A stretch of 41,876 bases of DNA from a virus, in the IMG/VR virus record IMGVR_UViG_3300036860_000522, positions 1 through 41,876 of that record, one strand, 5' to 3'. Made by a program: the position numbers and the translations under genes. Under the pieces are notes generated by a model. The model searched no databases and was not told the origin of the DNA. It saw only the letters and a list, made by a program, of their open reading frames with translations. The first letter of the stretch is position 1, and every line of letters starts with the position of its first letter. Positions 32,272-36,476 of the stretch are shown here, piece after piece.

Positions 32272-32389
32272 TCGCGACCGACTCCTCGACGCGCTGCAAC
32301 TCGCCGCCCGGGGCGTCCCGACCGTCGGCGCAATCGCCGCAGTGTCTGCCAGCGGTGTGGTGTCCGTCGGGTCACAGAACGTTTCGTGA
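32255..32389 (+). CDS. Short hypothetical protein
   Basis: A 44-residue frame (MKPQTDRDRLLDALQLAARG) starting inside the previous gene and ending GTGA with a further frame (32386-32616) that is mostly antisense to the minus-strand gene. Probably translated, but too short to be sure. Confidence 0.42.
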   Translation: MKPQTDRDRLLDALQLAARGVPTVGAIAAVSASGVVSVGSQNVS

Positions 32390-32445
32390 CCTGTCTGCCG
32401 TGCCGGCTGGCAATGCAGGCATATCACCAAAGGACGAGACACACA

Positions 32446-32721
32446 TCAGTGCGACCGGCTAACCCGCCGCCGCAGGAGATTCGTGAAATCGATGAGGAAG
32501 CGATCGAAATCCTCGGGCGTCCAACCAGGCTTGATCATCTGCATCAGGCGAACGAGTTCGTAGCCGAGCGCGCCCATGAGGACCCGGGGATCTTCGTGCG
32601 GACAGACTTCGGCTAAGTGCAGTTGGATGCGTTGATGCACGGCATCCACCCGGCGGCCGACGACGTCCTGCTCGAGCGGCGAGGCGGCCTCGAGACGCCG
32701 GACCTCCTGCAGGCTGAACAT
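32446..32721 (-). CDS. Minus-strand hypothetical protein inside the early region
   Basis: A 91-residue helical protein (MFSLQEVRRLEAASPLEQDV; LMGALGYELVRLMQMIKPGW; PEDFDRFLIDFTNLLRRR) of convincing composition. It is the only minus-strand gene in this run and is divergent from the repeat-bearing gene at 32761, with 39 bp between their starts. The opposite-strand frame is less protein-like. Function unknown; it may be a partner or regulator of its neighbour. Confidence 0.62.
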   Translation of the reverse strand: MFSLQEVRRLEAASPLEQDVVGRRVDAVHQRIQLHLAEVCPHEDPRVLMGALGYELVRLMQMIKPGWTPEDFDRFLIDFTNLLRRRVSRSH

Positions 32722-32760
32722 AGAGGCATTATCGGACGATGGTCCTGAAAGGCACGCATT

Positions 32761-33312
32761 ATGCGAGCGACCGACCGACCGACCGACCGACCGACCGACC
32801 GACCGACCGACCGATTTTCGCTGCCGGCCGATCTCCGTCGCCGCCTGGCGGCGATCGCCGCGGCGGAGGGCCTGACCGTGCGTGAGCTCGTGATCGACGC
32901 CGTCCGCGAGCTCGTCGCCGCCTATGCCGCTGACGAGGACCCGTTCGTGGCGCCACGCCGCACCGAGCCGCTCGATCCCACGATTCGGAGATGCGTCGGT
33001 TTTGCGCGGGCATGGGGATTCGACTGGCTGTTGATGGGAAACATCTACGCCTATCGCTCGACGAATCCCAAAGTGCTGCACACGGTTGACGATCCCGTCG
33101 GTCCGCTGAATCAGGACGCGCTGAAGTGGATGACGCAGAAGGCAGAACTCGTCATCGCAGCGTGGGGAAGGGCCCAATTGAATTGCTACGGCCAGACACT
33201 CGCCGGCTGGATTCTCTCCCTGGAACACACGCGCTGTTTGGCGCTGAATCACGATGGGTCGCCGAGGCATCCGCTGTATGTATCAGCCGCGATGACGCCG
33301 TGCCGAATCTGA
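32761..33312 (+). CDS. Ribbon-helix-helix / DUF1643 fusion with a tetranucleotide tract
   Basis: A 183-residue protein. After M-R-A it runs through a (T-D-R-P) repeat encoded by 11 CCGA units. About residues 19-55 then resemble a ribbon-helix-helix segment (FSLPADLRRRLAAIAAAEGL, TVRELVIDAVRELVAAY). From about residue 77 it matches DUF1643: DPTIRRCVGFARAWGFDWLL, NIYAYRSTNPKVLH, AELVIAAWGRAQLN, and CLALNHDGSPRHPLYV. The usual N-terminal strand of DUF1643 (the LNPS motif) is missing and seems replaced by the RHH part. The tract makes the gene a phase-variation candidate. It ends TGATG with the HNH gene. Confidence 0.78.
   Translation: MRATDRPTDRPTDRPTDRFSLPADLRRRLAAIAAAEGLTVRELVIDAVRELVAAYAADEDPFVAPRRTEPLDPTIRRCVGFARAWGFDWLLMGNIYAYRSTNPKVLHTVDDPVGPLNQDALKWMTQKAELVIAAWGRAQLNCYGQTLAGWILSLEHTRCLALNHDGSPRHPLYVSAAMTPCRI
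32771..32814 (+). repeat. Tetranucleotide tract, 11 x CCGA
   Basis: Eleven exact CCGA units (44 bp) begin ten bases after the A of the start codon, preceded by a near-unit GCGA. The unit is 4 bp, so gain or loss of one copy shifts the frame. Confidence 0.97.
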
Positions 33313-33650
33313 TGGCGATGGCGCCCCTGCATCCGTGTCCGCATCCGCACTGCCGGCGGCTCGTGCGATCCGCTCACTGTGCGGAACATACGCGCCAGGC
33401 CGATCAACGCCCGAACGTCGACATCCGGCGCTGGTATCACACGGAGCGCTGGTTCGCGCTGCGGCGCGAGGTCCTGCGCGCGGACCCGTACTGTGGGCCG
33501 TGTCTCGCGGAAGGCCTCGGCGCTGTGCCGGCGCGCCATGTCGATCACCGCGTGCCGCATCGCGGCGATCCGGCGCTGTTCTGGGATCGCGCCAATCTCC
33601 AAGGCCTGTGCCCATCGCATCACTCGGCGAAGACGGGAAAGGGACAGTAG
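33312..33650 (+). CDS. HNH endonuclease, packaging-type
   Basis: A 112-residue protein. An N-terminal zinc part (CPHPHCRRLV, then HCAEHTRQ) leads to WYHTERWFALRREVLRADPY, CGPCLAEGLGAVPARHVDHR and LQGLCPSHHSAKTGKG. The last two give the HNH core (DH...N...H). Such short HNH proteins sit near terminase genes of HK97-like phages and assist DNA cleavage during packaging. Here it is about 3 kb before the terminase. Confidence 0.85.
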   Translation: MAMAPLHPCPHPHCRRLVRSAHCAEHTRQADQRPNVDIRRWYHTERWFALRREVLRADPYCGPCLAEGLGAVPARHVDHRVPHRGDPALFWDRANLQGLCPSHHSAKTGKGQ

Positions 33651-35184: not shown

Positions 35185-36003
35185 TCAGGCGCGGCGCCGC
35201 GCCTTCTTCGTCACCGCCTGCAGACTCGCCTCGAGCGCTTCCCGCATGGTCACGACCGGCGCGACGTCCACCACCGGCGGCACCACAATCTCCTCGCCGG
35301 CGATCTTGGCGGCGATGAGGCGCCGCAAATCCTGCTGGTACTGGTCGGTGAAGTCGACGAGGTTCAACGGGCGCGTGCCGGCCGCGATCAGCTGTTTCGC
35401 CAGGCGCACCTGGTCGAGCGGCACCGCGGTGACCGACGGCAATTCATCGCCGGCGACCGCCTCCACCGCCCGCATTTCAGCGGCGTGATGCAAGGTGTGG
35501 AGCAGGAAGAAGAGCGCCCGCGTGGTGAACGCCGGCGGCCGCCGCACGGCGACCAGATATTCCCGCCCGTAAATCGCCAGCTTCCCGATGCCGATCGTGT
35601 CGAGCAGCGCCGCGCCGATCACGGCGAACGGCTCCACCGCGTGCGGCCCATCCGGGAGGACGAAGTAGCTGCGATCGATCACGGCCGGCTCGAGCGCCGC
35701 GGCCGGCGCGAACTGCGTCAGATCGATCACGCGGGTCGAGGGCGGCCGCACCGCCTCGAGCTCGGCCTCGAACAAGACGACGTAGCGGCCGGTCTCGAAT
35801 TCGAAGCCTTTCACGATCTCGCCGGCGAGGACGGCATGGTCGCAGGTCGGACACCACTTCCGCTGCTGGATGCGGGTGGAACAGGGCGCGTGGAGCTGGT
35901 TGAGCGCGAGCGTGTCGGCGGATTCGGTCGCGGGAAACACCTTGATCGGGATCTGGACCCGACTGATTTGCAGGACGCCTTTCCAGACGGGGCGCGCCGC
36001 CAT
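35185..36003 (-). CDS. ku: Ku-family DNA end-binding protein
   Basis: A 272-residue protein with the bacterial/phage Ku core: ARPVWKGVLQISRVQIPIKV at the N-terminus, LHAPCSTRIQQRKWCPTCDH, AGEIVKGFEFETGRYVVLFE, ALLDTIGIGKLAIYGREYLV and LAKQLIAAGTRPLNLVDFTD. A basic, Ala-rich tail follows. Ku homodimers encircle DNA ends for end joining. Mycobacteriophages Omega and Corndog use their Ku with host LigD to circularise genomes with short overhangs. Here it is on the minus strand, coupled by TGATG to an HTH gene, between an HNH gene and the terminase. GTG 36006 is an alternative start. Confidence 0.88.
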   Translation of the reverse strand: MAARPVWKGVLQISRVQIPIKVFPATESADTLALNQLHAPCSTRIQQRKWCPTCDHAVLAGEIVKGFEFETGRYVVLFEAELEAVRPPSTRVIDLTQFAPAAALEPAVIDRSYFVLPDGPHAVEPFAVIGAALLDTIGIGKLAIYGREYLVAVRRPPAFTTRALFFLLHTLHHAAEMRAVEAVAGDELPSVTAVPLDQVRLAKQLIAAGTRPLNLVDFTDQYQQDLRRLIAAKIAGEEIVVPPVVDVAPVVTMREALEASLQAVTKKARRRA

Positions 36004-36287
36004 CACTCACTCAGGGCTTCCTGCGCGTCCGGAAAGGGCTGCACCGTGGCGTACGGCCGCGGAATCTTCTGCCAGCCGATCGCGGTGAGAAAGGCGATGA
36101 AATCGTCGCGCAAGACCTTGTAGATACGTCGGCGCCCTTGCGACGCCGTGCAGATGGTCTGCAACTGCACCGTCGTGCCGTCCGGCGCCGTCACGCCGGT
36201 GTTGATCGCGCGGCGGATCCACTCGGTGGAGCAGTTCATCCATTCCGCACAATCGCGCGTGGTGAGGACGTCGACGGGTTGTCTCAC
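36003..36287 (-). CDS. HTH DNA-binding protein (excisionase-like) upstream of Ku
   Basis: A 94-residue protein from GTG 36287: DVLTTRDCAEWMNCSTEWIR then RAINTGVTAPDGTTV, and a wing RRRIYKVLRDDFIAFLTAIG. This is a HTH_17-type reader. It overlaps Ku by TGATG. It may repress the Ku pair or act as an excisionase. Upstream on the same strand lie 9-bp repeats (36323-36358). Confidence 0.65.
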   Translation of the reverse strand: MRQPVDVLTTRDCAEWMNCSTEWIRRAINTGVTAPDGTTVQLQTICTASQGRRRIYKVLRDDFIAFLTAIGWQKIPRPYATVQPFPDAQEALSE

Positions 36288-36322: not shown

Positions 36323-36358
36323 GAGCCAGCCGAGCCAACGGAGCCAACGGAGCCAACG
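36323..36358 (+). repeat. 9-bp tandem repeats upstream of the small terminase
   Basis: Four units, one diverged (GAGCCAGCC) and three exact (GAGCCAACG), in the divergent gap between the HTH/Ku pair and the terminase. Possible operator for the HTH gene or a terminase binding (cos/pac) site. Confidence 0.8.
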
Positions 36359-36476
36359 GACCAGATCCCACGCATGCCCACGTCGGCTACAACCGAGACA
36401 TCGCGTAACAACACGGCGCGCGGACGTGCCACGGCGGCGGCGTCGGGACCGGATGGGTTCCACGGGAAGGCGATGC

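Follow-up and report, generated by a model that had tools for sequence, protein, structure and literature searches.

A CCGA repeat tract at the start of a mosaic RHH-like/DUF1643 gene in a temperate phage: a candidate contingency locus

Here, we report a tract of 11 exact CCGA units (32771-32814, plus strand) at the start of a mosaic gene in a temperate phage. We tentatively regard it as a candidate SSR contingency locus with functional phase variation, a reading to which we give slightly less than even confidence. The gene is a 183-aa ORF (32761..33312, plus strand, stop TGA 33310-33312) encoding a PTDR tail, an RHH-like (ribbon-helix-helix) segment and profile positions 28-134 of DUF1643. 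Slippage in replication would add or remove CCGA units and thus shift the reading frame of this gene. The comparison with other phages on which we draw is one of analogy, as the genes compared are unrelated to the mosaic gene. The evidence base at the locus itself is one contig, with no relative carrying the tract found.

The whole stretch of DNA analysed (hereafter the window) comprises positions 1-41,876 of the IMG/VR virus record IMGVR_UViG_3300036860_000522 and has a GC content of 66%. Its integrase, repressor-like, replication-initiation, portal and tape-measure genes, together with a terminase-like gene for which 207 relatives were found in viral contigs, identify this high-GC DNA as a temperate tailed phage. 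A megablast search of window positions 20000-41876 against known phages showed no similarity. In addition to the CCGA tract, a second, weaker tandem repeat (GAGCCAACG, 4.2 copies) was present at 36323-36360, upstream of the terminase gene.

The 11 units lie inside a perfect period-4 run of 47 nt (32768-32814), and the tract was called by TRF at 32764-32814 (12.8 copies, 97% matches). It begins 10 bases past the A of ATG 32761, and the tract described in an earlier note on this DNA is thereby confirmed. None of 200 first-order Markov simulations gave a period-4 run of more than 17 nt, so a chance origin of the tract is excluded. It is the only tetranucleotide run of at least 3.25 units in the window, and also the longest tetranucleotide tract in the window and 886 kb of terminase-related phage loci (the runner-up had 6.5 units). 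PTDR repeats are encoded by the tract in all forward frames, and every frame is free of stops. Three features of a contingency locus are present here: a tandem repeat placed where a coding frame begins, a unit length that is not a multiple of 3 and a tract length beyond chance.

The consequences of a change in unit number depend on which start codon falls in the long frame. With n=8, 11 or 14 units, the fusion would be read from ATG 32761 (32761..32763, plus strand), which has a fair ribosome site (AAAGG 8 nt upstream, 32748-32752). With n=7, 10 or 13 units, an upstream ATG (32739..32741, plus strand) comes into the RHH/DUF1643 frame; it is preceded only by GAGG 12 nt upstream, and the fusion would probably be read from it weakly. 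With n=9, 12 or 15 units, neither ATG enters the long frame in silico, and the RHH-bearing protein would be off. Two of the three registers therefore still supply a start for the full frame. The earlier note had expected that a change of one or two units would abolish the product; this holds only for a gain of one unit or a loss of two, because only the n=9, 12, 15 register lacks a start, whereas ATG 32739 is in frame at n=10 and 13. Its view of the tract as an SSR contingency locus is retained here in so far as a frame-shifting repeat is present at the start of a coding gene and such tracts vary in other phages, but with a different on/off logic.

On the minus strand, a divergent ORF of 91 aa (32446..32721) starts 39 bp from ATG 32761, as previously described. 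It had no family match, and its codon-position GC (0.75/0.37/0.79) is coding-like. An HNH endonuclease gene (33312..33650, plus strand) follows directly downstream of the 183-aa ORF. No match to a sigma-70 promoter or terminator was obtained at 32300-33400. The direct repeat GCATTAT at 32726 and 32756 was weighed as an RHH operator and is too short to judge. The description of the gene as an early gene, perhaps for host takeover or exclusion, was found to be unsupported.

Good indirect support for the contingency reading comes from tracts of this type in other viral contigs. In phages unrelated to the window (L013, L018, L029, L047 at 5088-3853, and L317-L349), a PAPS-reductase-like gene (PF01507; phrog_424) carries GACC or GACA tracts of 4-13 units at one mid-gene site. 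The repeat unit is the same as that of the window (GACC is a rotation of CCGA) or differs by one base (GACA), although the tract is located mid-gene and not at the start as in the window. We compared 46 copies with both halves present, counting a copy as in frame if both halves share one frame. Only 6 of the 24 copies with a tract of at least 4 units were in frame (18/24 out), as against 19 of the 22 copies without a detected tract (3/22 out). The difference between the two groups (Fisher p = 3e-5) is indicative only, because the copies share descent (L334 and L335 are identical around the tract); the fraction of 6/24 is not different from 1/3 (p = 0.52). Tract lengths vary and frames are mixed in and out; among phage genes, this family is a strong candidate for phase variation.

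Unit numbers also differ in other families. CCGA tracts ranged from 7.5 to 10.25 units in the related contigs L015, L026, L041, L042 and L051, and had 8.25, 9.25 and 10.25 units in L032, L039 and L052, respectively. Moreover, three pairs of viral contigs, which are not established as phage coding genes, have 100% identical flanks and differ by one unit: L019/L036 (25 vs 26), L185/L191 (AGCC, 8.5 vs 9.5) and L219/L230 (7.5 vs 8.5). The mixed frames of the PAPS-reductase-like copies and these differences in unit number indicate, at the level of sequence comparison, that tracts of this type lack stability in viral contigs and that phage genes do have their reading frames shifted by them. Comparison among related phages gave no relative with the tract of the window; CCGA tracts of other phage families do differ in length.

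Several further observations were made on these tracts. An apparent C5-methyltransferase N-terminus is located upstream of the PAPS-reductase-like gene in L047. In L015 (4930-4968, reverse strand), L026 (4529-4558), L041 and L051, CCGA tracts that differ in length and context all follow a near-identical leader (AAGGAGGGGTTGACATGGTATACAGAACCAAGATAGCCTT, about 40 nt); L015 and L026 are 99.9% identical upstream and diverge right after the tract, with about 620 nt extra in L015. A CCGA tract behind this shared leader may be a recombination junction or a cassette end. In L202 (11141-11181) and L209 (2404-2440, reverse strand), the end of a repressor-like gene is formed by a CCAG tract (SQPA repeats) of 10.25 and 9.25 units, respectively. 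At the start of a DNA-methyltransferase-like gene, L014 (831-855) has 6.25 and L048 (175-207, reverse strand) 8.25 CCGA units; the tract is in frame in L048 (N6_N4_Mtase), and in L014 a stop follows 3 codons past the tract in the frame that enters it.

The C-terminal part of the gene product is a DUF1643 domain (PF07799, phrog_3230; 32971..33309, plus strand, 59% GC) that, as had been noticed earlier, lacks its usual N-terminal strand. Residues 69-172 match DUF1643 profile positions 28-134 of 134 with 93 bits (Pfam gathering cut-off 22.5), and the N-terminal strand is missing, since the match begins at position 28. The NPST motif borne by this strand is invariant across 37 relatives and absent from the window protein, in which an RHH-like segment stands in its place. 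On the other hand, 107 of the 134 profile positions and the DPTIRRC, WG and HPLY motifs are kept. The nearest relative, L007, encodes a full-length DUF1643 protein of 164 aa without RHH segment and without tract; its homology to the window starts at position 32974, and the DUF1643 parts are 72% identical. Judged from this sequence pair, the DUF1643 part is under purifying selection (dN/dS = 0.15 over 103 codons), the value spanning both lineages and predating the fusion partly, perhaps mostly. At 35185-36006 on its minus strand, the window encodes a Ku-like protein of the DNA end-binding type (PF02735, 105.6 bits), and L007 also has a Ku-like copy, 51% identical to that of the window.

The AlphaFold2 model of the L007 protein (pLDDT 93) was used for structural comparison. 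Each of the best 22 matches by Z score was to a UDG or a UdgX (Z 5.4-5.9; 120-127 residues aligned at rmsd 3.5-4.1), and matches with Z < 8 are weak. The modelled resemblance of DUF1643 to family 4 uracil-DNA glycosylases and UdgX is a lead and not an assignment. If this likeness is true, the strand lost from the window protein would correspond to a catalytic motif.

The segment between tract and DUF1643 (FSLPADLRRRLAAIAAAEGLTVRELVIDAVRELVAAYAA..., 32815..32970, plus strand, 74% GC) has in its sequence a putative strand-helix-helix pattern like that of CopG/Arc/ParD-type RHH proteins and had weak, consistent matches to five RHH families. The RHH assignment of the earlier note needs qualifying, because all of these matches were below the curated cut-offs. 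The best was Antitox_RHH (E 0.0047, 17.5 bits vs cut-off 27.2); RHH_1 (15.1 vs cut-off 20.5), RHH_10, RHH_5 and ParD were weaker than Antitox_RHH. AlphaFold2 on the fusion gave a pLDDT of about 43-66 over the RHH-like part, with an alignment that is unable to inform that part. No homologue or donor of this segment was matched in phages, plasmids or viral contigs. The likeliest function of the product would be DNA binding or a regulatory role via the RHH-like part, with a DUF1643 part devoid of its invariant motif.

We searched for the same arrangement elsewhere. The RHH-DUF1643 join was absent from 80 viral DUF1643 loci, 132 phage records and the terminase relatives, and none of the latter had an RHH segment or DUF1643. 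None of the DUF1643 loci examined in viral contigs was found to carry the tract, phage records gave no match spanning 80% of the protein, and in bacterial genomes the tract was not found and the single match had 36% identity. Since the join is absent from the other loci examined and GC falls from 74% to 59% across it (break at about 32970), the gene is a mosaic, and its sequence features suggest a probably recent one. Its product may be non-functional, because the NPST strand is lost and the RHH matches are below cut-offs.

These properties speak for the main rival explanation, namely that the tract is an unselected microsatellite, unstable but without adaptive role, in the disordered tail of a recent and perhaps non-functional chimeric accessory gene. 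We give this explanation a considerable probability, though clearly below an even chance. A join that is unique among the loci examined and has lost the invariant NPST motif fits it, and the drop in GC together with L007 homology from 32974 is as expected of recent recombination. Moreover, 48 stretches of viral contigs contained (CCGA)6 and 95 contained (CCAG)6, which served as control motif. Specific enrichment of CCGA in these contigs was therefore rejected, the control being twice as frequent, and the type of tract is no sign of selection. However, the DUF1643 frame is intact, its other invariant residues are kept and its dN/dS is low, even though most of the divergence may predate the fusion; the 11 units without interruption also suggest that the run is either young or maintained.

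Another explanation is that translation begins past the tract at the in-frame GTG 32878 (32878..32880, plus strand), which would place the tract in a leader or an upstream overlapping frame with no direct effect on DUF1643. This GTG has GGAGG 8 nt upstream, and off-frame stops flank it on both sides (TGA 32873-32875 and TGA 32883-32885), so that either off-frame reading ends no more than 5 nt from it. An in-frame start preceded by a Shine-Dalgarno sequence and lying within 8 nt of a stop in each of the other two frames occurred at no more than 7 of the 12,751 positions that were sampled from coding ORFs, a comparison that was framed after the feature had been seen. Nevertheless, the region right after the tract (32815-32877) has coding-type codon-position GC in the long frame (0.81/0.62/0.86; 0.87/0.45/0.87 at 32878-32970), and no in-frame ATG, GTG or TTG is available between the tract and GTG 32878. 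The gene thus looks translated through the tract. Furthermore, 32815-32877 can be read as strand plus first helix of an RHH fold, and a start at GTG 32878 would halve this domain. We consider such a start to be unlikely.

The same GTG could play a part in the contingency locus itself, as a candidate reinitiation site. Even in the OFF register, an RHH-less product may be made from it, because the off-frame readings end beside a start with its own GGAGG; given that the comparison was made post hoc, the arrangement is a lead for reinitiation and not proof. The three registers would give strong, weak and no fusion protein, respectively, with a possible RHH-less product. A full three-state switch, in which slippage changes the domain make-up of the protein by way of a good start, a weak upstream start and a restart at GTG 32878, is in our opinion improbable.

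Least of all do we expect an assembly artefact, by which two sequences were joined at or near the repeat or the units were miscounted: some CCGA tracts elsewhere do sit at contig ends (L023, L044) and the mosaic gene was not seen elsewhere, but a standard short read can contain the 47-nt tract, the GC and homology break at about 32970 is some 155 nt past the tract and not inside it, and the long frame spans both.

If phages do keep contingency loci of the kind favoured here, a burst would be a mixed population with regard to accessory-gene expression, which would affect host range, superinfection and counter-defence. Tract variation in phages is measurable from existing reads by counting variants in unit number.

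Repeat-driven phase variation is textbook knowledge for bacterial surface genes and, to our knowledge, has hardly been described for phages' own genes. In lic-type loci, graded states arise where start codons lie in more than one frame, as they do in the window locus. A literature search on SSR phase variation in phages, with incomplete coverage, yielded no account of an SSR switch encoded by a phage. The remark in the earlier note that such loci are rarely reported in phages agrees with the literature searched, although in viral contigs tracts of this type are not rare. In bacteria, tetranucleotide SSR contingency loci are known, for example in the LPS genes of Haemophilus influenzae (PMC2651432). 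The window locus resembles these loci in having its tract in the 5' part of the coding frame, where the number of units sets the frame; it differs in that the tract is phage-borne, has a CCGA unit, lies on an RHH-like/DUF1643 gene and is known here from sequence alone. Systems of this kind are thus familiar from bacteria, and what is new is the phage RHH-like/DUF1643 mosaic, in which two registers have a start and the third may allow a restart.
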